Positions 10,334 through 29,187 of a stretch of 36,979 bases of DNA are shown here, in pieces. The notes beneath the pieces are model-generated. The model ran no database searches, was not told the origin of the DNA, and saw only the letters and a list, made by a program, of their open reading frames with translations. The stretch covers positions 1-36,979 of the forward strand of contig JALSPJ010000131.1 of NCBI GenBank assembly GCA_026985995.1, in the 5' to 3' direction. The stretch is from Anaerolineales bacterium (GTDB taxonomy: Bacteria > Chloroflexota > Anaerolineae > Anaerolineales > DRMV01). The position numbers and the translations under genes were made by a program. The number at the start of each line of letters is the position of its first letter. Within the stretch, counting starts at the first letter, position 1.

Positions 10334-11017
10334 TCAGTCAGGCTGTTCGGATGATTTGGTGGAGGGCTCGGCCCAGGGGTCGATGAGGTGGTGCCGCACC
10401 GCGTAATGTACCACTTGGGCCACATTACGCAAGTTGAGTTTGCGCATGAGGCGGGTGCGATGTACTTCAACGGTTTTGGGGCTGATGTATAACATGCGCG
10501 CAATTTCCTGGTTGGTATATCCCTGAGCAATGAGGATGAGGATTTCCCGCTCCCGGGGGGTAAGACGCTGATGGGGCGGGGTGGCCGTTTCGCCGGCCAT
10601 TAGCGCATCGAGCACCAGTTTGGCGATGGGTGGGTAAAGGTAGGCATTCCCAGCGTGTACGGCGCGAATGGCTTTGACGAAATCGGTATCTGCGGCCTGT
10701 TTGAGCACATAGCCCGCGGCGCCGGCTTCCAGCAAGGGAAGCACAAACTCCTTGTTGCCATATTGGGTCAGCATGAGCACCCGCAGGTCGGGGTTCTCAG
10801 CCAACAGATAGCGCAGGGTGGTCAGTCCGTTTATGCCGGGCATCATCACATCCAGCACCACCACATCCGGTCGTAGGCTGCGGGTCAGCTGGAGCGCCTC
10901 TTCCCCCGAACCGGCTTCGCCAACGACTTCGATGTCATCGTAAGTTTCCAACAAGGCCCGAAGTCCGGCCCGTAAAATGGCATGGTCATCCACCAGCAGC
11001 ACGCGAATTTTGCCCAT
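10334..11017 (-). CDS. NarL/FixJ (LuxR-HTH) response regulator
   Basis: IRVLLVDDHAILRAGLRALL...DVVVLDVMMPGINGLTTLRYL...LTPREREILILIAQGYTNQEIARMLYISPKTVEVHRTRLMRKLNL. Confidence 0.95.
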   Translation of the reverse strand: MGKIRVLLVDDHAILRAGLRALLETYDDIEVVGEAGSGEEALQLTRSLRPDVVVLDVMMPGINGLTTLRYLLAENPDLRVLMLTQYGNKEFVLPLLEAGAAGYVLKQAADTDFVKAIRAVHAGNAYLYPPIAKLVLDALMAGETATPPHQRLTPREREILILIAQGYTNQEIARMLYISPKTVEVHRTRLMRKLNLRNVAQVVHYAVRHHLIDPWAEPSTKSSEQPD

Positions 11018-12860
11018 GAGCGGCTCCTGGGGTCGGTTGGTTTGGGTCGTAGGGCACGGTGATGAACAAGTGGGTGCCTTGTCCGGGTGCGGTGCGCACT
11101 TCCAACGAAGCGTGTATCAAATGTAGGCGCTCGCGCATTCCCAACAGGCCAAAGTGTCCGGCCGTGGCCAAATGATGAGGGTCAAAGGTAAAACCGCGGC
11201 CATCGTCGTGAATTTCGATGTGTAACGCTTGGGGCTGCCATTGAAAAACCAGGCGCGCGTGTTGGGCCTGAGCATGCCGCGCGATGTTGTTGATGGCTTC
11301 TTGCAACACGCGATACAAGGTAGTGTGCACCACCGGGGGGAATTCGTGGGGAGTGCCGTGCACTTCGATTTGCACTTCAACACCTACGGCGCGCAGGCGT
11401 TCTTCGGCATACCAACGCACGGCCGGGAGCAAACCATATTCGTCCAACAACCCGGGGCGCAAATCCAACACGATGCGGTTAACCCCCTCCAGCGTGCGCG
11501 CCACATGCTCCCGCAACATGCGCAGTTGTTGCTGCAAATGAGGGTCTTCGGTCTGGCGTCCCAGCGCGCCCAAGCGCACAATGAGATTGGCCAGTTCTTG
11601 ACTGGTTTCGTCATGCAGTTCCCGAGCCACGCGGCGGCGTTCTTCTTCTTGGGCCGTAATCAGGCGGGTCAGCAGTTCCTCCCGCTCGCGGCACATCTGC
11701 ACCAGCGTTCCGCTTTGATGTTCCAAACGCTGCGCCAAAGTTTGCCGGAGTGCGCGTTCCGTTTGTAGGAGATGACGCACCCGCTGCCGCATGGCGTCGA
11801 TGTGTTCGGCCAGGGCTCGTAGCACATGCAACCCGCGTTGGGGAACGGGGTGGTTCAAATGGCCCTGGGCAATGCGCTGGGTGGCCTGTTGCAGGGCTTG
11901 CAACGGGGCGAATACTGCCCAATGGTGAAAGACGACCACCGCGAGCGCCAGCACGATTAAAGCCGTGGACAGCGCGATGGCCCCCCATCGGGCCTGGTCG
12001 TAAGTGTGGTTCAGCACTTCTGCGGGTTTGAGGAGCACCAGGGTGTAATACATGCCCTGGTGAGTGGGGCCCAGGGGGGCGAAGACTACGCCATAGAGCT
12101 GCGCCTGGTGCCTCACAAAGAAGGGCTGCCAGGCCGCGACCCGATGCTGGGCCAGTTCCTGTTGCACTGTGGTGAGCGTGGACGGGGGCAAAGGTTGGCC
12201 GGCGATGACCACGGCTCCTTGCCCGTCGGTGAGCAAAAGGGAGCCGCCAAACCCCCGCGCCAGCTGCGCCAAAGTGACGGAATCGAATTCATGGGCGATG
12301 GTGACCACCGCGTCCACTTGGCCGCGAGCTGTGGTGTGCGGGGCTACGGCGATGAGCCAAATGCGTCCCTGGATGGTGGTCAATTCAGCCAAGGTTTGGC
12401 CTTTCCAACCGCGTTGCACCGCATCCAGGCGTTGTAAATCGTCGGCTGTAAAAACCGCCTCTTCCGCCGCGGTGTAGGCGACGGGATGAGGCGTCAGAAT
12501 ATACACCTGGTCCCGTTCGTGCGCGGTTTGATGCAACGCCAAAAAGCGCCGCAAGCGTTCCAGTTCCCCCTTGGACAGCCAGGTGAAAAGGTCCTCGTAG
12601 TGGGCCAGCAACAGGGCTTCGTCCCGCAAATAACTCGCTTCAGCCGTGAACCAGCCGTGCAAGGCTATGGCCTGCTGCTGCAGCTCGTTGCTCAGACATT
12701 GGCGCACTTGCCAGACGATGTTTTCACTCAGCCGCCACACCCCCCATATCAACGCGATGGCAGCCCCCAAACTCAACACCAATGGCCAAACCAGCATGCG
12801 GTTCCAGCGTTCCCCACGGGTCACGCGTCGCGCTCCTTCTTGCGAATTACCCAACCCCAC
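10986..12860 (-). CDS. Sensor histidine kinase (extracytoplasmic Cache/CHASE-like sensor, HAMP, HisKA_3, HATPase_c)
   Basis: Two TM segments flank a ~250-aa sensor; RRRVARELHDETSQELANLIVRLGAL phosphoacceptor; EAINNIARHAQAQHARL and HDDGRGFTFDP ATPase motifs. Overlaps the response regulator by 32 nt. Confidence 0.92.
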   Translation of the reverse strand: MGLGNSQEGARRVTRGERWNRMLVWPLVLSLGAAIALIWGVWRLSENIVWQVRQCLSNELQQQAIALHGWFTAEASYLRDEALLLAHYEDLFTWLSKGELERLRRFLALHQTAHERDQVYILTPHPVAYTAAEEAVFTADDLQRLDAVQRGWKGQTLAELTTIQGRIWLIAVAPHTTARGQVDAVVTIAHEFDSVTLAQLARGFGGSLLLTDGQGAVVIAGQPLPPSTLTTVQQELAQHRVAAWQPFFVRHQAQLYGVVFAPLGPTHQGMYYTLVLLKPAEVLNHTYDQARWGAIALSTALIVLALAVVVFHHWAVFAPLQALQQATQRIAQGHLNHPVPQRGLHVLRALAEHIDAMRQRVRHLLQTERALRQTLAQRLEHQSGTLVQMCREREELLTRLITAQEEERRRVARELHDETSQELANLIVRLGALGRQTEDPHLQQQLRMLREHVARTLEGVNRIVLDLRPGLLDEYGLLPAVRWYAEERLRAVGVEVQIEVHGTPHEFPPVVHTTLYRVLQEAINNIARHAQAQHARLVFQWQPQALHIEIHDDGRGFTFDPHHLATAGHFGLLGMRERLHLIHASLEVRTAPGQGTHLFITVPYDPNQPTPGAAHGQNSRAAGG

Positions 12861-13147: not shown

Positions 13148-13630
13148 ATGGTATGGGTGTGGTTGGCTTATCGGTATGAGGCCGCGGGGAGATACGCACT
13201 GCGCCGTATGGCCGGTTGGCCTGAGGTGCGGGTGTTGGGGCTGGTCGGGCACGAAGAGGCGCTGCTGGAAGTGGCCCGTTGGCAGGCCCCGCAGATGGTG
13301 GTGGTGCATGTGCCATCGTGGGGGTATCCCACGGTGGAGTGGTTGCGTTGCTTGCGGGGGGTGGCCCCTGGGGTACGGGTGCTGGCCGTCGGGTGCGGCG
13401 CTGCCCAGGTGGGCGAAGCCTTCTTGCGCCTGGCTCCTTTTGGTTTGCGGGGTTGTGTGTGCGCGGAAACAGGGCGCGAGGTGCGGGCGGCGTTGCAGGC
13501 GTTACGGCGGGCCAATGCTTTGTACCTGTGTCCGCAAGCCAGCCGTGCCCTGCTCGAGGCCTATCGGCGGCGTTGTGCCGCGCCGACCCAGGCCGCTGCC
13601 GCCCAGATGATGGCAGGAGCGCTGACATGA
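13148..13630 (+). CDS. Stand-alone receiver-like (pseudo-receiver) protein lacking canonical phosphorylation residues
   Basis: MVWVWLAYRYEAAGRYALRRMAGWPEVRVLGLVGHEEALLEVARWQAPQMVVVHVPSWGYPTVEWLRCLRGVAPGVRVLAVGCG... aligns along its length with the receiver of the 10334..11017 regulator; no HTH. Stop overlaps next ATG (ATGA). Confidence 0.75.
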   Translation: MVWVWLAYRYEAAGRYALRRMAGWPEVRVLGLVGHEEALLEVARWQAPQMVVVHVPSWGYPTVEWLRCLRGVAPGVRVLAVGCGAAQVGEAFLRLAPFGLRGCVCAETGREVRAALQALRRANALYLCPQASRALLEAYRRRCAAPTQAAAAQMMAGALT

Positions 13631-14964
13631 TGATGGACAGCAAACGCCGAGGTTGGGCCATCTTGGGGGTGTTGGGGGGAATGCTGGCGCTGTGGTTTGG
13701 CCTGGCGGCCGGTTGGGGGGTACAGCCGGCCTGGGCGCAACCGTTGCCGGGGGAGGAAGCCCCCACGCCGCAAGCCGATGCCGGTTCCCCCGACACCGAT
13801 TGTTTGATGTGCCATACCAATCACAATTTCCGCGGGCGATTCGCCAATGGCCAGGTCATTTCGTTGTATGTGGATGTGGGGGAATTCGAAAACTCGGTGC
13901 ACGGTCCGGAAGGGCTGGAGTGCATCGCCTGTCATCCCAATACGCGCGCGTATCCGCATCGGCCCGACCAGGCGCAAGTGGATTGCACGACCTGCCATCT
14001 TTCCGAAGATGGCCGGGTGGGTGCGGTGGTGCGCGATTTGGATTTGGTGGTGGATTTGCCTTATGCCGATGTGCGGGAGATGGTGCTGCGTATCAATCAA
14101 GAATGCCAGAGTTGTCACGAAGAGGCGGCCAAGGAGGCGCAGGACAGTATGCATGTGCGGGCCCAAGAGAGCGGCAACCGGGACGCGCCCGTGTGCGCCG
14201 ATTGTCACGGCAGTCACGACATTCAACCCCCAGGGCAGCCCCGGGCCCGAGTGCCCCAATTGTGCGGGCAATGCCATCGGCCTGTGTTCACCACTTATCA
14301 GGCCAGTGTGCACGGCCAGGCTTTGCAACAAAACCCGAACCACGCCGATGTGCCCACCTGCGTGAGTTGCCACGGCGTGCATAGCGTGCGCGGGCCCCGC
14401 ACACCGGGTTTCCACAACGACATGATTGCCGTTTGCGGCCAGTGCCACGGCGATGCCGAACGCATGGCCAGGTATGACCTTTCGGCGCAGGTGTATGTGT
14501 CGTATTTGCGTGAATTCCACGGACGGGCCGTCAATGTGGCTCGTTTGGCCGGGCCGGGGCCCGAAAGCGCCGAAGCCACCTGTTACGACTGTCACGGCGT
14601 GCACAACATTCAGCCGGTGGATGACCCGCGTGCCACGGTACACGGTGAACGGCTGTTGACCACCTGCCAGCAGTGCCATCCGGCCGCGGGGCCGCGCTTC
14701 ACCACCGCGTGGAATCGCCACCAGGAACCTTCATGGGAGCGGACCCCGGTGCTGGCGGCCATCGATTGGCTGTATGGCTATGTGCTCATCCCCGGCGTGA
14801 TTGGCAGCTTCTTGCTCTACATTGGTTTGGATGCCCGCAAGCGGTGGCAGGAGAAACGCCGGGCCGTACATCGGGCCCTGTTGGAGGCCGAGCGCGAACT
14901 GGCGCGTGAATTAGGAGCGGATGACGATGGCGCTTTCGATGATGAAGACCTCCTCGCCGAATAA
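13627..14964 (+). CDS. Membrane-anchored decaheme c-type cytochrome
   Basis: Signal peptide; ten CXXCH motifs (CLMCH, CIACH, CTTCH, CQSCH, CADCH, CGQCH, CVSCH, CGQCH, CYDCH, CQQCH); C-terminal TM WLYGYVLIPGVIGSFLLYIGL followed by charged tail. Confidence 0.93.
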   Translation: MMMDSKRRGWAILGVLGGMLALWFGLAAGWGVQPAWAQPLPGEEAPTPQADAGSPDTDCLMCHTNHNFRGRFANGQVISLYVDVGEFENSVHGPEGLECIACHPNTRAYPHRPDQAQVDCTTCHLSEDGRVGAVVRDLDLVVDLPYADVREMVLRINQECQSCHEEAAKEAQDSMHVRAQESGNRDAPVCADCHGSHDIQPPGQPRARVPQLCGQCHRPVFTTYQASVHGQALQQNPNHADVPTCVSCHGVHSVRGPRTPGFHNDMIAVCGQCHGDAERMARYDLSAQVYVSYLREFHGRAVNVARLAGPGPESAEATCYDCHGVHNIQPVDDPRATVHGERLLTTCQQCHPAAGPRFTTAWNRHQEPSWERTPVLAAIDWLYGYVLIPGVIGSFLLYIGLDARKRWQEKRRAVHRALLEAERELARELGADDDGAFDDEDLLAE

Positions 14965-15862
14965 AACCGATGCATGGGAGCGCGTCCTGGAGCGCCTGGA
15001 GCTCAAGCGTCGGTTGGTGCTGCGCCGGCTGCGGCAGGCCGAAGCCTGGGCGCAACGCCTCAAGGTGCTGCCCGACGGGCGGCGCGTGTTCCTGCGCTTC
15101 GACCCCGTGTTGCGCTATCAGCATTTCGTCTTCATGCTGGCCTTTACCACCCTGGCCATCACCGGCCTGCTGCAGCATTTCAGCCATCACCTTTGGGTGG
15201 CCCGGGTGGTCAATGTTTTGGGCGGTATGGAGGCCCTGCGGGTGGTGCACCGGGTGGCCGCGCTTATCAGCATTGGCGTTTCGTTGCACCATGTGGCGCA
15301 AATCCTGCACATGTGGGTGGTGCAACGGCGGCGGGGGGCCATGTGGCCCCGCTGGAAGGATTTTCAAGATTTATGGCACACCGTGCGCTACAACCTGGGC
15401 CTGGCACCCCAGCGCCCGCAACACGACCGCTTCTCCATCGAGGAAAAGATGGAGTATTGGGCCTTGCTGTGGGGCCAAACTTTGATGATGGTGACCGGCC
15501 TGATGATGTGGTTCCCTGTGCTGGTCACCCGCTGGTTGCCCGGCGAAGCCATCCCCGTAGCCCGCGCGCTGCATAGTTGGGAGGCCATCCTGGCCACTTT
15601 GGCGGTGATGGTGTGGCACGGCTACCATGTCCATCTCAAGACCCGCAACACCAGCATCTTTACCGGCTATTTGACCGAAGAAGAGATGCTGGAAGAGCAT
15701 CCTTTGGAGTATCGGCGCATTGTCGCCGCGCATCGGCGGGTGCAGCAGCTGCGCCGGGAACTGGCCCTGATTGAGGCCCAAATGGCGGATGTGCGCACCC
15801 GCCTCCAGGGGCCTGGGCAGCCCAGCCCGGCACCCGCGGCCGCAGCTCTTCGGGAGGGATGA
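14921..15862 (+). CDS. Four-TM di-heme cytochrome b (cytochrome b561/FdhI-like)
   Basis: Four hydrophobic segments with conserved His: LRYQHFVFMLAFTTLAITGLLQHF, VVHRVAALISIGVSLHHVAQILHM, YWALLWGQTLMMVTGLMMWFP, LHSWEAILATLAVMVWHGYHVHL. Confidence 0.85.
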   Translation: MTMALSMMKTSSPNKTDAWERVLERLELKRRLVLRRLRQAEAWAQRLKVLPDGRRVFLRFDPVLRYQHFVFMLAFTTLAITGLLQHFSHHLWVARVVNVLGGMEALRVVHRVAALISIGVSLHHVAQILHMWVVQRRRGAMWPRWKDFQDLWHTVRYNLGLAPQRPQHDRFSIEEKMEYWALLWGQTLMMVTGLMMWFPVLVTRWLPGEAIPVARALHSWEAILATLAVMVWHGYHVHLKTRNTSIFTGYLTEEEMLEEHPLEYRRIVAAHRRVQQLRRELALIEAQMADVRTRLQGPGQPSPAPAAAALREG

Positions 15863-16851
15863 CCATGGCTGCCTGGCTATCACGATGGACACGGCTTTGG
15901 CGGGAAGTGAGTGTCGAGCGGCTGACGCGGGCCGTGGTGGCCGTGGCCGCGTTGTTGGCCCTGACCACCCTGGCTTTTGGCGGCTATTACTACTGGGACC
16001 GGTATCACGCCCGGGGGCCTTTGTCCCCTGCGGAGCAAGCGATGCAGGAATTGGAGCAAGCCGTGCGCGCCAATCCCAACGACCCCGATGCGCGGGTGGC
16101 CCTGGCCGCGTTGTATTACGAAAATCATCTATACGACCGGGCCGCGGACGCGGCCACCCAAGTGCTGCGGGCCTATCCCGACCACGAAGCCGCGCTCCTT
16201 ATTGCCGGCCTGGCTTATGTGCAACAGGACCGCCTGGACCAGGCCGTGCCCCTGTTGCAACATTTTGTGGAATTGCGCCGCGACAGCCCCACGGCGCAGG
16301 TGGACCTGCAGCTGGAGACGGCTTACTACTTTTTGGGCCGTGCCTATGTGTTGTTGGGGGAACCCGACGCGGCCATCGCGCCATTGGAAGCGGCCTTGCG
16401 CATTTCGCCCACCGATGCCGATGCCCTTTACCAGCTGGGCGTGGCCTATCAAAGCCTGGAACGCTGCGATGACGCGTTAGCATCCTTTCACCGCGCGGTG
16501 CGGCTGGTGCCCAAGTTCCCCGAAGCCTATGAGGGGATGGCCCAGTGCTATCAGGTGCTGGACGCCCCCCTCCGTTTGCGTTACGCCCAGGGGATGCTGG
16601 CCTGGTCCCAAGGCCGCTATGCGCCGGCGCGCGCGGCCCTGGAAGCGGTGACGGAACAGGACCCTGACTTCGCGCCAGCCTGGCTGGGCCTGGGGCTCAC
16701 TTATGAAAAGCTGGGCGATTTGACGGCCGCGGCCGAGGCCCTGGCCCGCGCCCAAACCCTGGCGCCGGATGATTTGGCCGTGCAGCACGCGCTGGGGCGG
16801 GTGCAAGCCGCCCTGCAAGCCCAGGCCGCTACCCAGGAGGCAGCGCCATGA
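15859..16851 (+). CDS. Membrane-anchored TPR-repeat protein
   Basis: N-terminal TM (AVVAVAALLALTTLAFGGYYYW) then repeated TPR units (AVRANPNDPDARVALAALYYENHLYDRAADAATQVLRAYPDHEAALLIAGL...). ATGA overlaps on both sides. Confidence 0.88.
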   Translation: MTMAAWLSRWTRLWREVSVERLTRAVVAVAALLALTTLAFGGYYYWDRYHARGPLSPAEQAMQELEQAVRANPNDPDARVALAALYYENHLYDRAADAATQVLRAYPDHEAALLIAGLAYVQQDRLDQAVPLLQHFVELRRDSPTAQVDLQLETAYYFLGRAYVLLGEPDAAIAPLEAALRISPTDADALYQLGVAYQSLERCDDALASFHRAVRLVPKFPEAYEGMAQCYQVLDAPLRLRYAQGMLAWSQGRYAPARAALEAVTEQDPDFAPAWLGLGLTYEKLGDLTAAAEALARAQTLAPDDLAVQHALGRVQAALQAQAATQEAAP

Positions 16852-18149
16852 CCCCAACCCCCTGGACCGACGACACCCCCCATCCTCTTGTGCCCGAGGA
16901 AACAACACCGCCCCCCGTGGCCGATGCGGCCGAGCCCGAGGGCCTTCCCCCCGCGGAGGCGGGCCTCGCGCCCTTACCGTCTCAGGCCGAGGTCAAAAGC
17001 GAAGACGAGGCCCGCCAGCGTCGGCGTTTGTGGGCCGTGCTGTTGGCGTTGCTGTTGGCCCTGTGTGGCGTGGGCTTTTTGTTCAGCCGCTATGTGCGGC
17101 GGCCCGAACCCTTGCCCGAAATGCTGCCCGTACCCGTGGAGGTCAACTATCCGCCGCATTTCCTCTTCGCGTTTTACGATGTCAATGGCCCCTTAGGCAT
17201 CGCGTTGTCACCCTCCGAAGACCGCCTTTATGTCACCGAGGGGGAAGGTGACCGCCTGGTCAAAATTTTCGATACCGAGGGGAACCTCCTGCGCGCGTTT
17301 GCGCCCCCGCGCACCACCGCGGCCGAACGCGCCCCCGTGTATGTGGCGGTGGACGCGCGCGGACGCGTGTATGTGACCGACCGCCTGCAGCACGCCATTT
17401 TCGTTTACGACGCGGAGGGGAATTACCTGGACACCATCTTAGGGCCCGACCTCACCCTGAGCGAATATATCGCCAAACACACGGGCTTCAAACCCCGGCC
17501 CGGAACCTTTGCGTATGACTGGTTCGAGGAGGAAGTGCACTACCAGGACCCCCAGGGCCGCCGACGCACCCTGCCGCGTCCCGACCGCCCTACCTGGGCG
17601 CCTTTGGGGGTGGCTTTTGACGCTCAGGGACGCCTTCTGGTGACCGATGTGGCTTTGGGTGCACATCGCGTGCTGGTGTTTTCGCCGCAAGTGGCCGCGC
17701 AAGACGACTGGAGTGATTTCCAGCCCGAAGTGTGGTCCTTTGGCGAATTTGGCGAAGCCGAAGACCAGCTGCAATTTCCAAACATGGTCGTGGTGGATGC
17801 CTTGGGGCGCTTTGTGGTTTCCGACGGGAATAACGGACGGCTGTCGGTGTGGGATGCCCAGGGCGTTTGGCAAATGCTGGTGGGAACCGGTGGGGGCGGC
17901 GGGGGCTTGAATTTGCCGCGTGGTTTAGCCCTGGACGCGCGGCAACGCCTGCATGTGGTGGATGCGGTGGGCCAGGTGGTGCGGGTGTACGACTTTTCCG
18001 AGGCCCAGCCCGAGTTCCTTTTTGCCTTTGGCACCGCGGGCACTTTGAGCGGCCAATTCCATTATCCCAACGATATTGCCATCGCTTCCGATGGCCGGCT
18101 GTATATCACCGATAGGGCCAACGACCGCGTGCAAGTGTGGTCCTACTGA
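16848..18149 (+). CDS. Membrane-anchored NHL-repeat/6-bladed beta-propeller protein
   Basis: Acidic N-term, TM LWAVLLALLLALCGVGFLFSRYV, then NHL-type repeats (PLGIALSPSEDRLYVTEGEGDRLVKIFDTEGNLLRAF; PLGVAFDAQGRLLVTDV; PRGLALDARQRLHVVDAVGQVVRVYDF; PNDIAIASDGRLYITDRANDRVQVWSY). Confidence 0.88.
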   Translation: MTPTPWTDDTPHPLVPEETTPPPVADAAEPEGLPPAEAGLAPLPSQAEVKSEDEARQRRRLWAVLLALLLALCGVGFLFSRYVRRPEPLPEMLPVPVEVNYPPHFLFAFYDVNGPLGIALSPSEDRLYVTEGEGDRLVKIFDTEGNLLRAFAPPRTTAAERAPVYVAVDARGRVYVTDRLQHAIFVYDAEGNYLDTILGPDLTLSEYIAKHTGFKPRPGTFAYDWFEEEVHYQDPQGRRRTLPRPDRPTWAPLGVAFDAQGRLLVTDVALGAHRVLVFSPQVAAQDDWSDFQPEVWSFGEFGEAEDQLQFPNMVVVDALGRFVVSDGNNGRLSVWDAQGVWQMLVGTGGGGGGLNLPRGLALDARQRLHVVDAVGQVVRVYDFSEAQPEFLFAFGTAGTLSGQFHYPNDIAIASDGRLYITDRANDRVQVWSY

Positions 18150-18274
18150 AGAAAAGGAGGTGGGCATGACTTGAAACATTGGACGCCTTTCACCTGGCCG
18201 TTTGCAGCCCGTTTTGGAGGTAGACGCGTGTTCCAACGACCCGTAGCTCTCTCATGTACTGCAGGAGGTGTGGT

Positions 18275-19219
18275 ATGCGGAAGTGGCTTTGGCTTCTTCC
18301 CGTGTTCTTGAGTGGGGCCTTGCTGTTGAACCTGGCCGGTACGGCCTGGGCCAACGGCGGGCCGCATGGCGGTTACACGCCGACTACCGACGCGTGCGCA
18401 GGATGCCATCGGGCACACACCGCGCAGGGCCCCAATTTGCTCACCGCGACCAGCACTTATGAGCTGTGCATGTCGTGCCATGGCGCGGCGGGCACCGGCG
18501 CGGATACCAATGTGGCCGATGGCAAATTCGTGGCCGCGCGCAGCCCCAGCACCGAAGGTGAGGCCAACACCGCCGACAATGGGGATTTGCTGGGCGGCGG
18601 CTTCGTCAACTACAAAACCGCAGCCGTCACTTCCATCCACAATTCCGATGGCACCCTCATGGCTGCGTGGGGCTTCGGGGTGGCGCGCGGGCAAACCGCG
18701 AACCTGCCCTCCAGCCTCACTTGCGCCTCGTGCCACGACCCCCATGGTTCCCCCAATTACCGCATTTTGCGCGAGCAAATCGCGGGCAATGCGGTCACGG
18801 TGGACCAGGTGGACGAGGGCCCGGCCAACAAGGATTACGACGACGAGCACTGGCCCGACAATGTGAGCAATGTGTGCGTGGCCTGCCACGGCGCCTATCA
18901 TGTCACCCGGCCCAACAGCGCGGAGGATAACTCGGATAATGGCTCGGGGAACGCCGACTACGGCGGCGATATCTCCACCTATGCCCATCGGGTGGGGATG
19001 AACTACGCCTATGGGGGCAACGCCGACCCTGAAGCCACGGGCTACGGGGGCTACTTCTTGCCGTTGACCGCATCGAAGAATGTGGCCTGCCAGACCTGCC
19101 ACCTGCCCCACGGTACTTCGGCCTCCATGAGCACCCTGGCCACCGCGCCTTTCACCAACGATAGCGCGCTGCTGCGGTTGGACAACCGGGGCGTGTGTGA
19201 GGTGTGCCATCAGAAGTGA
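18275..19219 (+). CDS. Secreted hexaheme c-type cytochrome (paired CXXCH family)
   Basis: Signal peptide MRKWLWLLPVFLSGALLLNLAGTAWA; six CXXCH (CAGCH, CMSCH, CASCH, CVACH, CQTCH, CEVCH), including CHDPHG/CHLPHG paired-CXXCH signatures. Confidence 0.92.
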   Translation: MRKWLWLLPVFLSGALLLNLAGTAWANGGPHGGYTPTTDACAGCHRAHTAQGPNLLTATSTYELCMSCHGAAGTGADTNVADGKFVAARSPSTEGEANTADNGDLLGGGFVNYKTAAVTSIHNSDGTLMAAWGFGVARGQTANLPSSLTCASCHDPHGSPNYRILREQIAGNAVTVDQVDEGPANKDYDDEHWPDNVSNVCVACHGAYHVTRPNSAEDNSDNGSGNADYGGDISTYAHRVGMNYAYGGNADPEATGYGGYFLPLTASKNVACQTCHLPHGTSASMSTLATAPFTNDSALLRLDNRGVCEVCHQK

Positions 19220-19233
19220 GTCATCTGCCCTCC

Positions 19234-19273
19234 CCAGGGGTGGGCCGGCCGCATCGCGCTGGCCCGCCCCTGG
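19234..19273 (+). other. Strong intercistronic hairpin between the two hexaheme cytochrome genes
   Basis: 13-bp stem with one G-U pair: CCAGGGGTGGGCC (19234-19246) / GGCCCGCCCCTGG (19261-19273), 14-nt loop, no following U tract. Confidence 0.6.
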
Positions 19274-19308
19274 CCTGTACATCTGGTCCCCCCGGGAGGC
19301 TGGCAGCC

Positions 19309-20322
19309 ATGAAGCGTTGGATGTGGGCGTTGGCCCTGATGTTGACCTGGCTTTTGGTTTGGGAACGGCCACGCCTGGCGCGCGCCGATAATGGCCCCCA
19401 TGGGGGCTATACCCCCACCACGGACGCATGTGCCGGCTGTCATCGGGCGCACACGGCTGTGGGCCCGGCTTTGCTCACCGCGGCTTCCAGCACCGAGCTC
19501 TGCCTCACCTGCCACGGCGCTGGCGGTACGGGCGCGGATACCGATGTGATGGATGGCGTGTACTTGCAACGCGACAACACCGTCGAATCCCCTGCCGAGG
19601 GGGTGGTCAATCGGGGGCTCAAAGGTGGTGGGTTCCAATTCGCCCGCATGGATACCGGCTGGGTAGGAGACGCTACCCCGCGCGCGGTGACCTCGGCGCA
19701 TTTGATGGACGGGAGCACCGGCATAGCCTGGGGCGGTGGGGCCTGGGGCTCCGGCCCGGGCACCAGCATGACCCTGGCCTGTACTTCATGCCATGACCCC
19801 CACGGCAATGCCGGGCCCGGGGGAACGCCCACCTACCGCATTCTGCGGCCTGTACCCCGGCAATCGGGTGCCACCCAGGTGGTGTTGGACGACGAAACCC
19901 CCAAGCTCTACACCATCGCGGCGAACGATGGCAAATACTTTGGCGAGGAATACGACAACACCCTCTATCAGAACCTGGCCGCGTGGTGCGCCACCTGTCA
20001 CGACCGGTACCTGGCCCCCGACGATAGCGGCCACACCGATACCGGCGACCCCATTTTTGCGTATCGCCATATTTCCCAGGGGCAGGGATGTGGCTGTCAT
20101 AATTTACACGGCGGGCCACCCCCAACCGGCAACCCCGAGTTCCGTCACGACCCTCTCTCGTGCCTTACCTGCCATGTGGCCCATGGCTCCACCGCGCGCA
20201 TGAGCGGCCATGCGGGGGTGGTGCCGTGGCCCAATGGCAATGGAGCGCCTTCGGGCGACGCGCGCAGCGCCCTGCTGCGGGTGGACAACCGCGGCACTTG
20301 CGAACTTTGCCACGATAAGTGA
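19309..20322 (+). CDS. Secreted multiheme c-type cytochrome, paralogue of 18275..19219
   Basis: Signal peptide; shares GPHGGYTPTTDACAGCHRAHTA..GP.LLTA and SALLR.DNRG.CE.CH termini; six canonical CXXCH (CAGCH, CLTCH, CTSCH, CATCH, CLTCH, CELCH) plus an atypical GCGCHNLHG. Confidence 0.92.
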   Translation: MKRWMWALALMLTWLLVWERPRLARADNGPHGGYTPTTDACAGCHRAHTAVGPALLTAASSTELCLTCHGAGGTGADTDVMDGVYLQRDNTVESPAEGVVNRGLKGGGFQFARMDTGWVGDATPRAVTSAHLMDGSTGIAWGGGAWGSGPGTSMTLACTSCHDPHGNAGPGGTPTYRILRPVPRQSGATQVVLDDETPKLYTIAANDGKYFGEEYDNTLYQNLAAWCATCHDRYLAPDDSGHTDTGDPIFAYRHISQGQGCGCHNLHGGPPPTGNPEFRHDPLSCLTCHVAHGSTARMSGHAGVVPWPNGNGAPSGDARSALLRVDNRGTCELCHDK

Positions 20323-20335
20323 GGAGGTCGTCATC

Positions 20336-23293
20336 GTGCGCGGTTGGCCGCCTGCATCCTGGCCCTTGCCCCCCTGGCGCATGGCCCTCACCCTATGGGC
20401 GGGCCTGGTGGTGATATTGGCCGTCGGCCAGTTGCACGGCGGAGACACCGAGATTGCTCGCGCCCAGGGGCCCCATCGCGGACCCTACCCGCCCACCACC
20501 GATGCCTGCGCGCGCTGTCACCGGGCCCACACGGCCACCCGCGCCGAGTTGCTCATCCGCGGCGGAGGCGGCCGGGGCTGGGGAGGCGGATTTCCGGGCG
20601 TGTGGGCCGCGGGTCAGGGGTTCCCCCGCCTCACGCCGGATGACTCCCTGGATGCGTTTTGCTTTGCCTGTCACAACGGCACCGGGGCCGGGGCCACGGC
20701 CCCCGTTTCGGCCCACGGCAACCGCCACGCGCCCGCGGACCCTGCCTCCGACCAGGCGGAAGCCACCGCGGACCCGCCCTTCCATATCGGCTGCGTCACT
20801 TGCCACGACCCCCATGGCTCACCCAACGCCTATGGGGTGCGGGTCATGCTGCCCTGGGCCCCCGGGGAAGGAAACACGCACAGCATCGGGCCCATCCTGT
20901 TCCAGGGTCGCACCGGCCAGCATTCGTTTGACGATGGCCAAAGTCCCCCCGCCTCGCGCCTGTGTGTGGCCTGTCATCAGGCGGTGGGCACGCTGCAACA
21001 CGCCGGTGGCGCCGACCATGCTGGCAATTTTGACTTCTCCGGCGAAAATTGCCTGACCTGCCATCCCCACAGCGCGGACGCCTTTGGCGAAACCGTGGAC
21101 GGCTTCATCACGCCGCCCCAGGCCTGGGAACAGCTGGTCGCACGAGCCCGGGTTGACCTGGCCTTGCAGGGGCCGCCAGCGGACCTGACCGCGCGCGGCG
21201 GTGAAGCCCTTACCCTGACCTGGCAGGTGCACAATCACGGCCCTCAAGACGCGTGGCAAGTGCAGTGGCAACTCCACGGGAGCGGTTTGAACCCCGCCTG
21301 GGTGCGCGCCTGGGAGGCTTCGGACCAGGGTCGGTGCGAGTGGGAAAAGCAAACTTTGGTGTGCACCTGGGAGGAAATCCCGGCTCACGCGGCGCGGGTG
21401 GTGCGGCTGACTTTGCTTCCACCCGCGCGGCAGGGCCCCACGGTGCTTCCCCTGGAAGCCACGGTGCACGCGCAACAGACCGACCCCAACGCGACCAATA
21501 ACGCCTGGCGCGCCGCATTGCCTTGCCGTTATATGGCCGACCTGGCGTTGCAGGTGGAAGGGCCTGAGGCCGTGGATGTGGGCCAAAAGGCCGAGTTCAC
21601 TTTCAGCATCACCAACCAGGGCCCGGCCGTGGCCCACCAGGTGGTGCTCGAAGGTTGGATGCCGCCTGAAATGGCTTTGGAAGCCAGCCACCCGGAGCAA
21701 GGCCTGTGCGCCACACAACCCCACCACCGGGTGACCTGCGATTTGGGCACTCTGGAAGTGGGGCAAACCGTGGTGGTGCGCTGGCTGGTTAGCGCCGTCC
21801 AATGGCCATCCGACGCCTTGCCATGGCGGGCTGTGCTGGCCGCAGCCGAAGAGGACCCGAACCTGACCGACAATCAAGCCACCTGGAGGGTGGTGGTGCG
21901 CGAGCAAGCCGATTTGCAGGTGACCTGGGAAACGACACCGCGCTACGCCGCCCCCGGCCAGGAAATCACTTTGTCTTTTGTGGTGGTCAACGCGGGGCCT
22001 CGAAGCACAGCCGCGGTGTTGGAGGGCCTTTGGCCCGGAACCGTGCTGCGCCTGGAAGGATGCCCCGGGGCGCCCGAGGAGGCTCAGCCTGTCGAGGGGA
22101 ACGCGTGGCGCTGTGTTTGGGCCGACCTATCCCCTCAGGCACCGCAGCAGGTGCAGGTTCAGGTGCAAGCCCCCAATGCCGTGGGCCCGGCTGCCGCGCG
22201 GTTGATGTTGGCACCTCTGGATGTCCAGGACCCCCATCCCGACAACAATCAGAGCACCGTAGAAGTCGTGGTGACGCGGGCCCCGGATGTGGCCCTGGAA
22301 GGCCAGTGGCCCCAGGTGTTAACTCCCGGGGTGGTGACCTCCGTCTATTGGCAAGTGCGAAATCACGGGCCGGTGGAGGCCCAGGGTGTGGGATTGTGGC
22401 TCGGGGTCACTCCCAACGCGGGCGTGACCTTGCAGCCCCAAACGGAGGACGGCCCTTGCACCCCCGAAGATGAAGGATGGTGGTGCCCGGTGGGTACTTT
22501 GCCCGTGGGGACGGGCAAAGAGGTTCAGGTGGTCTTGCTGCCGGCCCCCGAGGCCCAGGGCGCCATTATCCTGTGGGCCGAGGCGCGCAGTTCGCAACAG
22601 GCGCAGGACCCCGACCCCAACAATCAGGCCCAAAGGACCGAAGTTCGGTTGCAACCGCGCAGCGATGTGACCCTGACGGCCGCGGTGGAACCGGCGCCAT
22701 TACCCGGCCAACCCTGGCTGTTGACTTTGACCGTGGAAAATGGCGGCCCTTCATGGGCCCGGCAGCTGGTGTTGCAGGTACCGTGGCCCGACGATGTCCA
22801 GGTGTGGCCATGGGAAGAAGGGGAGAACCCCGCCTGCCACTGGGAGCCGGTCGCGGAAGAAGACGAAGGCGCGACCCAGGGCATTGCTCAGGTGCTGGTG
22901 TGCCGGTGGGAGGTGTTGGCCTCCAACGCGCACGAGCAGGTGACTTTGCAGGTGTTGCCCAGGTTGTCGTCTGCCCCCCAGGTGTTACAGGCTCAGGTGG
23001 AAGCAGCAACTCTGGACCCGCACCCCGAAGACAACCAGCTGGAGATACCGCTGATTTGGCCTACACCTACACCCACGCCCACCGCGGTGCCGCCCGGCCC
23101 CACGCCTACGCCCACGCCCACCACGGTGCCGCCCGGCCCCACGCCTACACCCACGCCCACCGCGGTGCCGCCCGGCCCCACGCCTACGCCCACGCCCACC
23201 GCGGTGCCGCCCGGCCCCACGCCTACACCCACGCCCACCGCGGTGCCGCCCGGCCCCACGCCTACACCCACGCCCACCGCGGTGCCGCTCTAA
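20336..23293 (+). CDS. Secreted pentaheme cytochrome fused to ~5 DUF11/CARDB-like beta-sandwich domains and a C-terminal PT repeat stalk
   Basis: GTG start with SD GAGGAGG; signal peptide; GPHRGPYPPTTDACARCHRAHTA homologous to the two preceding cytochromes; five CXXCH (CARCH, CFACH, CVTCH, CVACH, CLTCH); then repeated modules such as ADLALQVEGPEAVDVGQKAEFTFSITNQGPAVAHQVVLEGWMP and SDVTLTAAVEPAPLPGQPWLLTLTVENGGPSWARQLVLQVPWP. Confidence 0.85.
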   Translation: MRGWPPASWPLPPWRMALTLWAGLVVILAVGQLHGGDTEIARAQGPHRGPYPPTTDACARCHRAHTATRAELLIRGGGGRGWGGGFPGVWAAGQGFPRLTPDDSLDAFCFACHNGTGAGATAPVSAHGNRHAPADPASDQAEATADPPFHIGCVTCHDPHGSPNAYGVRVMLPWAPGEGNTHSIGPILFQGRTGQHSFDDGQSPPASRLCVACHQAVGTLQHAGGADHAGNFDFSGENCLTCHPHSADAFGETVDGFITPPQAWEQLVARARVDLALQGPPADLTARGGEALTLTWQVHNHGPQDAWQVQWQLHGSGLNPAWVRAWEASDQGRCEWEKQTLVCTWEEIPAHAARVVRLTLLPPARQGPTVLPLEATVHAQQTDPNATNNAWRAALPCRYMADLALQVEGPEAVDVGQKAEFTFSITNQGPAVAHQVVLEGWMPPEMALEASHPEQGLCATQPHHRVTCDLGTLEVGQTVVVRWLVSAVQWPSDALPWRAVLAAAEEDPNLTDNQATWRVVVREQADLQVTWETTPRYAAPGQEITLSFVVVNAGPRSTAAVLEGLWPGTVLRLEGCPGAPEEAQPVEGNAWRCVWADLSPQAPQQVQVQVQAPNAVGPAAARLMLAPLDVQDPHPDNNQSTVEVVVTRAPDVALEGQWPQVLTPGVVTSVYWQVRNHGPVEAQGVGLWLGVTPNAGVTLQPQTEDGPCTPEDEGWWCPVGTLPVGTGKEVQVVLLPAPEAQGAIILWAEARSSQQAQDPDPNNQAQRTEVRLQPRSDVTLTAAVEPAPLPGQPWLLTLTVENGGPSWARQLVLQVPWPDDVQVWPWEEGENPACHWEPVAEEDEGATQGIAQVLVCRWEVLASNAHEQVTLQVLPRLSSAPQVLQAQVEAATLDPHPEDNQLEIPLIWPTPTPTPTAVPPGPTPTPTPTTVPPGPTPTPTPTAVPPGPTPTPTPTAVPPGPTPTPTPTAVPPGPTPTPTPTAVPL
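23060..23290 (+). repeat. Tandem 39-bp (13-aa) coding repeat, six copies
   Basis: Six units of PTPTPTPT(A/T)VPPG, last truncated to ...TAVPL then stop; DNA unit cc(t/c)ac(a/g)cc(t/c)ac(a/g)cccacgcccacc(g/a)cggtgccgcccggc. Confidence 0.95.
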
Positions 23294-28002: not shown

Positions 28003-29187
28003 ATGCGTGATTTGATTGCCCCCCATGGCGGCGTGTTGGTCAACCGGATGCTCACCGGCGCGTTGCGCGAAGCCGCGCGCGAGCGGGCCGCCGCGTTGCC
28101 TCGCATTCCCCTCTCGCGGGCCAACCTGGCCGACCTGGAAATGATTGCCGTGGGCGCCTACAGCCCCCTGACGGGCTTCTTGCGCCGGGACGACTACGAG
28201 CGGGTGGTGGCCGAGATGCGCCTGACCAGCGGCCTGGTGTGGCCCATCCCCGTCACTCTGGCCGTGGACGAAGCCACCGCGCGCGGCCTGCGGGAAGGGC
28301 AGGATGTGGTGCTGACCGAAGGCGAGCGGCCGTTGGCCCTCATGCACATCGACGAGATTTACCCCTACGACAAGGAGCGGGAGGCCCGAGAGGTGTATCG
28401 CACCACCGACCCCGCGCATCCGGGCGTGGCCCGGCTCTACGCCCAGGGCGACTATCTGCTGGGCGGCGATATTTGGGTCTTCGACCTGCCCCGGGCCGCC
28501 ACCGAGGAATTCCCCGACTTGCGCTACACCCCGGCCCAAACCCGTCGCCTGTTCGCGGCCCGGGGGTGGAAGCGGGTGGTCGCGTTCCAAACCCGCAACC
28601 CCATCCACCGGGCCCACGAGTACATCCAAAAGACCGCGCTGGAAATCGTCGATGGCCTTTTTCTGCACCCTCTGGTGGGCGAGACCAAAGCCGACGACAT
28701 CCCCGCGGCCGTGCGCATTGCCAGCTACAAGGTGGTGCTGGAGAAGTATTATCCTCAGGAGCGGGTGGTGTTGGGCGTCTTTCCCGCGGCCATGCGCTAC
28801 GCCGGCCCCCGGGAGGCCATTATGCACGCGCTGGCGCGCAAGAATTACGGCGCTACCCACTTCATCGTTGGCCGGGACCACGCCGGCGTGGGCAACTATT
28901 ACGGCACTTACGACGCGCAGAAGATTTTCGACGAATTCCCGCCGGAAGACATCGGCATTGTGCCGCTGCGCTTCGAGCACGCCTTCTATTGCCGGGAGTG
29001 CGGCACGGTGGTCACGGCCAAGACCTGCCCCCACGGGCCCGAGGCCTGGCTGTACCTGTCGGGCACCGAGGTGCGGGCGCGCCTGCGCCGCGGGGAGATG
29101 TTGCCGCCCGAGTTCACCCGCCCCGAGGTGAGCGAAGTGCTGCGCGCCGGCCTGCAGGCCCAGGCCGCCACCGTGCCGGGGAAATGA
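28003..29187 (+). CDS. sat: Sulfate adenylyltransferase (ATP sulfurylase)
   Basis: VAFQTRNPIHRAHEYIQKTALEIVDGLFLHPLVGETKADDIPA...GRDHAGVGNYYGTYDAQKIF...FYCRECGTVVTAKTCPHG: QTRNPxHRAHE and GRDHAG motifs. Confidence 0.97.
   Translation: MRDLIAPHGGVLVNRMLTGALREAARERAAALPRIPLSRANLADLEMIAVGAYSPLTGFLRRDDYERVVAEMRLTSGLVWPIPVTLAVDEATARGLREGQDVVLTEGERPLALMHIDEIYPYDKEREAREVYRTTDPAHPGVARLYAQGDYLLGGDIWVFDLPRAATEEFPDLRYTPAQTRRLFAARGWKRVVAFQTRNPIHRAHEYIQKTALEIVDGLFLHPLVGETKADDIPAAVRIASYKVVLEKYYPQERVVLGVFPAAMRYAGPREAIMHALARKNYGATHFIVGRDHAGVGNYYGTYDAQKIFDEFPPEDIGIVPLRFEHAFYCRECGTVVTAKTCPHGPEAWLYLSGTEVRARLRRGEMLPPEFTRPEVSEVLRAGLQAQAATVPGK

Follow-up and report, generated by a model that had tools for sequence, protein, structure and literature searches.

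A conserved gene cluster with a TPR-NHL-hexaheme core is a candidate electron-export system of porin-free Chloroflexota

Introduction

Can a bacterium without a porin carry respiratory electrons to an acceptor outside the cell, and which proteins would it use? This question is raised by a cluster of eight genes (A to H) on a 36,979-nucleotide stretch of DNA, here called the window, which is contig 131 (JALSPJ010000131.1) of an Anaerolineales genome of 2.35 Mb in 281 contigs, estimated to be 94% complete. An initial annotation, made from the sequence alone, had placed in a Chloroflexota-like host a locus at 13148-23293 encoding a cytochrome b, a membrane decaheme and secreted multiheme cytochromes, and had read it as a conduit for electrons out of the cell. 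We followed this proposal through the relatives of the host. In our judgement the locus probably encodes a system through which a monoderm Chloroflexota cell exports respiratory electrons. It is built around a constant core of a TPR protein, an NHL protein and a hexaheme cytochrome, to which different quinol dehydrogenase modules are joined.

Results

A conserved eight-gene locus. The eight open reading frames (ORFs) first described are all present on the + strand, and the nearest public relatives of the window are metagenome-assembled genomes of Chloroflexota/Anaerolineales, which bears out the host assignment. A recount returned the 27 canonical CXXCH heme motifs, split 10/6/6/5 over B, F, G and H, and these four are the only ORFs with at least two CXXCH in all six frames of the window. 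A chance origin of the motifs was rejected, as shuffling the same proteins gave averages of 0.02-0.04 motifs and a maximum of 2 in 5,000 shuffles. The 4-nt ATGA overlaps were confirmed at the A/B, C/D and D/E junctions, and B and C overlap by 44 nt (14921-14964), provided that C begins at its first ATG. Domain searches with hidden Markov models agreed with the earlier assignments for B to H. Genes B-H are under purifying selection: against a relative of the same genus, the ratio of nonsynonymous to synonymous substitution rates was 0.16-0.23 (B-F), and against one of the same family 0.09-0.35 (B-H); in the latter comparison E and G were under the strongest constraint.

The TPR, NHL and hexaheme genes form the constant core. 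Cluster loci (designated by L numbers) were gathered with two independent baits, the TPR gene D within the class and a profile of the hexahemes F/G within the phylum; gene calls in these loci came from a simple scoring script, and starts may be misplaced. With the D bait, 29 of the 346 genomes of the class were carriers, and in all 20 loci with sequence enough to be judged E adjoins D and a hexaheme gene (F or G) follows. The F/G profile matched 16 of 400 phylum genomes, and the D-E-hexaheme arrangement was found in 8 of the 10 loci retrieved, most of the 8 lying outside the class. One genome holds the pair of D-E units twice. Within the window's family, in other genomes and genera, the order B-C-D-E-F-(G-H) is repeated in L027, L035 and L040, and from C onward in L036, and an assembly artefact was rejected for this reason. 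The initial annotation would have been refuted had these genes never co-occurred elsewhere; co-occurrence was found, both in several families and in lineages of the phylum that are more distant. The constant core of the cluster is thus TPR-NHL-hexaheme (D-E-F/G).

Two unlike putative input modules share the same downstream genes. The genes that would feed electrons into this core vary. In these 20 loci from the D bait, the B-C pair was accompanied by another multiheme gene, here called O and lying at the position of the B-C pair, in 8, O was present without B-C in 10 (among them L099, whose contig starts just upstream), and neither was present in 2; B-C without O was seen in the window's family and in L131. 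O (for example L088:4866-6443, - strand, and also in L087, L089-L102 and L132) encodes a protein of ~525 residues with a NapC/NrfH-like start (PF03264 1.3e-11; NrfH 3.8e-15) and one transmembrane helix. It usually carries 8 CX2CH motifs. Of 27 copies, counting fragments, 23 have a CX3CH at the first heme and 24 a CX4CH close to the end, so that O may bind ten hemes. In a survey of quinol dehydrogenases of extracellular electron transfer, an atypical CX3CH of this kind, adjoining the transmembrane helix, is reported for ImcH homologs, one of which, with a single such helix, occurs in Anaerolinea thermophila (PMC6295460). The O proteins of the sister clusters share with ImcH both this feature and the NapC/NirT-type start, and differ from it in having one transmembrane helix instead of three and, usually, the set of 8 CX2CH plus CX4CH; here and below, ImcH and CbcL of Geobacter were compared by their described features. 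No O protein, or ImcH-type NapC/NirT start with CX3CH, was found in the window or its genome.

Since two unlike types of quinol dehydrogenase share the same downstream genes, the cluster would appear to move quinol electrons to secreted cytochromes, and we regard this sharing, seen at the level of gene content, as the best evidence for such a transfer. The interpretation first proposed stands in part: the gene set and the addition or substitution of an ImcH-type protein in sister clusters support its conduit logic, but the decaheme and the cytochrome b are not the constant part of the system.

B and C resemble a CbcL divided over two genes. C (14921..15862, + strand) encodes a diheme cytochrome b of the FdnI/HydC type (PF01292, cytochrome b561, 5.6e-9), which matches over its full length the cytochrome b subunit of formate dehydrogenase N, FdnI (1kqf_C, E=6.9e-17). 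Its residues H68, H110, H218 and H233, invariant in 23 homologs, align to the heme ligands of FdnI, which we take to be histidines 18, 57, 155 and 169; the HydC/FdnI-like diheme cytochrome b part that is a trait of CbcL-type proteins is thus present in C. B (13627..14964, + strand) encodes a membrane-anchored decaheme c-type cytochrome with 10 CXXCH, a Cytochrome_C7/c3 domain match, an N-terminal signal or transmembrane segment and a C-terminal transmembrane helix at about 375-395. Nine of its CXXCH and nine other histidines are invariant in 25 homologs, bar one truncated copy, and B would accordingly hold nine bis-His hemes. The periplasmic domain of CbcL likewise has nine hemes, all bis-His (PMC9129911). 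CbcL of Geobacter sulfurreducens and its relatives MtoC/MtrH therefore share with B-C the combination of an FdnI/HydC-type diheme cytochrome b and a nine-heme bis-His c domain, and CbcL and B-C are both expected to oxidise quinol and to pass electrons outward. However, CbcL is a single protein with six transmembrane helices, whereas here there are two genes, C being of FdnI size, and B, unlike CbcL, has ten hemes and its own C-terminal transmembrane helix. The survey cited above reports no CbcL homolog in Chloroflexi (PMC6295460).

The tenth heme of B is limited to a longer variant, found mostly with the TPR-NHL-hexaheme triad, and lacks a conserved distal histidine. B could thus have a catalytic site, which weighs against a purely conductive role and favours a different explanation, that the locus encodes a respiratory complex for a soluble substrate (nitrite, tetrathionate, arsenate or similar) in which B or F/G would be the terminal enzyme and not a wire. 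The profiles of B and of F/G do touch NrfA and octaheme nitrite reductases or HAO. Nevertheless, the AlphaFold model of B (predicted local distance difference test score, pLDDT, 81.5), which has a long C-terminal helix, resembles HAO folds only at a template modelling score of about 0.3; such weak matches were not used to assign function. The locus is also without a molybdopterin or other catalytic subunit, and several secreted multihemes accompanied by TPR and NHL proteins would be unusual for a single-substrate reductase. Together with the heme ligation of F/G, described below, this leaves the soluble-substrate explanation very unlikely.

In a tree of C proteins, that of the window groups with those of triad clusters, other orders included (13 rows, 93/92; 12 rows, 96/97), and L039, from another genome of the window's family, has the C type associated with nine-heme B proteins. 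Thus C follows the type of cluster over taxonomy, a pattern that either horizontal transfer or an old duplication would produce. B and C also occur together without the remaining cluster genes in other families of the order; B-C is a detachable module. An order-wide variant, in which a nine-heme B goes with a C bearing an extra C-terminal CXXCH, lies mostly among different neighbours, for example genes for a 10-heme protein and NrfD/Fe-S-like and bc-complex genes; we counted it as a sister module outside the triad system. No second copy of B was found in the window's genome.

The secreted cytochromes and their TPR and NHL partners. F (18275..19219, + strand; Paired_CXXCH 1.2e-16) and its paralog G (19309..20322, + strand; Paired_CXXCH, with an extra CXCH) each encode a secreted cytochrome with six CXXCH. 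F probably starts, by alignment, at 18275 and not at 18254, and G at the ATG at 19309. H (20381..23293, + strand) joins a pentaheme head of the F/G type (Paired_CXXCH, five CXXCH) to DUF11 repeats (6e-41) and a Pro/Thr repeat tail; its start lies near 20381 rather than 20210, although the placement is uncertain. The tail is encoded by a 39-bp tandem repeat of 5.7 copies (window 23066-23288).

In 35 homologs, F and G have six CXXCH in common and exactly six further invariant histidines, so that every heme has a candidate distal ligand, and the NrfA-type motif CXXCK occurs in no protein of the cluster. We therefore rejected a nitrite reductase reading of F/G, with no CXXCK, no open heme and six distal histidines for six hemes; the same points argue against the soluble-substrate explanation in general.

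A hexaheme with six bis-His hemes also recalls OmcS, and the combined F/G profile finds OmcS (6ef8) over most of its length (E=0.0014). F/G might then polymerise into extracellular cytochrome filaments assembled by D and E, a stronger form of the export reading that is compatible with it. NHL genes adjoin OmcE/Uet-type cytochromes elsewhere, and one cluster ends in a subtilase gene (L093:16441-17754; PF00082 3.5e-66), which brings to mind the protease of OmcZ filaments. Yet the F-only profile gave no OmcS match at E<=0.05, other multihemes outscore OmcS, and the AlphaFold model of F is poor (pLDDT 66), with no match in the PDB by Foldseek. With the evidence divided in this way, we consider filaments of F/G unlikely.

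D (15859..16851, + strand; TPR_11 5.6e-32, TPR_CcmH_CycH 1.3e-16) and E (16848..18149, + strand; NHL 1.1e-25) each have an N-terminal transmembrane anchor. The resemblance of D to the CcmH/CycH TPR domain, known relatives of which bind apocytochromes, is one among many TPR family matches. NHL genes adjoin extracellular multihemes in the Uet clusters of Tenderiales/Gallionella and in those of D. ferrophilus and Geoalkalibacter (PMC10734462, PMC9769857, PMC12016550). Taking into account this neighbourhood, the likeness of D to CcmH/CycH and the constant company of a hexaheme, D and E are probably assembly or docking parts.

Several variations were observed in this part of the cluster. Residues 261-264 of G (window 20089-20100) form a contracted motif, CGCH (CXCH), and a GG motif comes next, as in six close homologs; at the position of the CXCH more distant G proteins carry a seventh canonical CXXCH, and the CXCH represents a heme site that is either lost or unusual. 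Cytochromes with 12, 15, 16, 24 and 26 CXXCH stand at the G/H position or upstream in L097, L103, L093 and L132, which suggests heme-number expansion through duplication. In L138 and L139, outside the class, the cluster is followed by an O copy and by DsbD/CcdA-like and ResB genes, the latter typed by Pfam in L138; these clusters seem to bring their own cytochrome c maturation genes.

Envelope and direction of flow. No porin had been recognised at first, and this absence is supported: the locus holds no unexplained ORF, and Omp85 was not detected in the window's genome by a search that found it in 7 of 14 control genomes. Since Omp85 is lacking, the host is most likely monoderm and a secreted cytochrome would already be outside the cell. 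The genome encodes a CcmF-type heme lyase. Iron reduction and the exchange of electrons with electrodes are both reported for Ardenticatena maritima, a related member of the phylum (PMC5808234).

Two further observations speak against the export reading or narrow it. The genome, searched for further respiratory genes one family at a time, has several heme-copper oxidases, and the cluster is not its sole respiratory outlet; moreover, the cluster is patchy within the family, with E in 6 of 18 genomes (some of them incomplete). The oxidases would also suit flow in the reverse direction, in which F/G/H take electrons from Fe(II), sulfide, a cathode or a partner cell and pass them through B-C and the quinone pool to terminal oxidases. 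In line with this, the CbcL relatives MtoC/MtrH are grouped among the quinone reductases that iron oxidisers use (PMC6295460), and in cathode oxidisers NHL genes go with the Uet cytochromes (PMC10734462). On the other hand, the alternative module is ImcH-like, and in Geobacter both ImcH and CbcL are known to take part in electron export. Although anatomy alone cannot decide the direction, the likeness of both modules to those found in metal and electrode reducers favours export over uptake, and we hold reverse flow to be rather unlikely.

Regulators and other genes. The interval first given for the locus, 13148-23293, misses a regulatory pair just upstream, at 10334-12860 (- strand), that recurs beside the cluster in relatives. 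It consists of a NarL-type response regulator (RR; 10334..11017, - strand; Response_reg 2.5e-28, GerE 5.2e-22) and a sensor histidine kinase (HK; 10986..12860, - strand; HisKA_3 9.4e-13, HATPase_c 1.4e-10) with two transmembrane helices and a HAMP domain. RR orthologs, 60-78% identical, lie beside many clusters, and HK orthologs adjoin RR in the relatives. Together with A (13148..13630, + strand), this pair is a recurrent upstream partner of the cluster. A is a degenerate receiver, or pseudo-receiver: in its alignment with RR the phospho-acceptor Asp is replaced by His, and the acidic pocket and the Lys are gone. Most copies of A retain the GCxC and LCP cysteines, and with these A might sense redox state or a metal instead of serving as a phosphorylation partner. 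Near the clusters L029, L033, L102, L114 and L132, some sensor kinases or adjacent proteins carry two CXXCH and are possible c-heme sensors.

Elsewhere in the window, a sulfate adenylyltransferase gene (28003-29187; PRK04149 3.2e-167), preceded by a gene for a multi-transmembrane protein without an NCBIfam match, has no visible tie to the cytochrome cluster. On other contigs of the same genome, contig 89 (locus L106) encodes an octaheme protein of the tetrathionate reductase family (TIGR04315 1.9e-187) followed by a PhsC-like cytochrome b, and contig 169 (locus L107) a 12-heme ExtM-like protein beside HK/RR genes.

Discussion

The arrangement that we favour, respiratory electron export, would work as follows. 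C would take electrons from quinol via its two b hemes and hand them to the decaheme B, anchored at the outer face of the membrane, so that B and C together would act like a two-gene CbcL, a quinol:multiheme-cytochrome oxidoreductase. B would then pass the electrons to the secreted hexahemes F/G, and these to H, whose hemes would sit on a stalk of DUF11 and Pro/Thr-rich repeats; F/G/H would carry them across the wall zone to an outside acceptor, which may be a mineral, a humic substance, an electrode or a partner cell. D and E, anchored and predicted to face outward, may fold, dock or arrange the hexahemes, and HK/RR and the degenerate receiver A would control expression. The quinol-to-C step rests on homology. 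From predicted location and co-conservation we infer the later steps, and the order of transfer, the extracellular acceptor, the outward direction and the roles of A, D and E are to be read in the same way. As a conserved gene system the cluster is solid, while its function in electron transfer is unproven.

Export fed by CbcL or ImcH is known; what would be new here is a split CbcL-like and/or ImcH-like input that feeds, without a porin, a constant TPR-NHL-hexaheme core. This combination of TPR, NHL and hexaheme genes was not found described in the open-access literature. A parallel to B-C is Mco of anaerobic methanotrophic (ANME) archaea, where two genes encode a cytochrome b (VhtC-type) and a multiheme protein (7/11-heme) in cells with no outer membrane, and where quinol-type (methanophenazine) oxidation is involved (PMC9012536). 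Mco is archaeal, however, with other heme numbers, and a TPR/NHL/hexaheme core is not described for it. The Uet, D. ferrophilus and Geoalkalibacter clusters share with the window NHL proteins encoded beside extracellular multihemes, but their hosts are diderm, Uet also includes a prolyl isomerase and a beta-barrel porin, and neither a TPR partner nor a hexaheme of the F/G family is described there. More generally, porin-cytochrome conduits (Mtr, Pcc, Oet, Uet) have an outer-membrane beta-barrel, which the window's locus lacks. OcwA of Thermincola and ARMA_0580 of Ardenticatena are, as F/G/H are predicted to be, surface multiheme cytochromes of cells without porins; yet OcwA is a single nonaheme HAO-like reductase and ARMA_0580 a heptaheme, and a comparable gene cluster is not described in either case.

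A bolder proposal, which we advance tentatively and expect could well fail, is that the TPR-NHL-hexaheme triad is a previously undescribed, phylum-wide device with which monoderm Chloroflexota would build an electron-conducting layer or filament across the cell wall, into which exchangeable quinol dehydrogenases (split CbcL-like, ImcH-like) plug; the TPR and NHL proteins would be devoted to assembly, and a novel subunit of filaments may be found in the hexaheme.

Few cases are known of porin-free, single-membrane bacteria that move respiratory electrons outside the cell. Sediments, anode communities and hydrothermal settings commonly contain Chloroflexota, and no defined pathway accounts for the iron and electrode respiration of one isolate. 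The conserved gene block with its two alternative inputs provides a candidate pathway and marker genes for metagenomes, and the swaps of modules are a natural experiment on which parts are essential. Finally, the constant presence of TPR and NHL genes hints at a further assembly or docking step for cytochromes that cross the wall.

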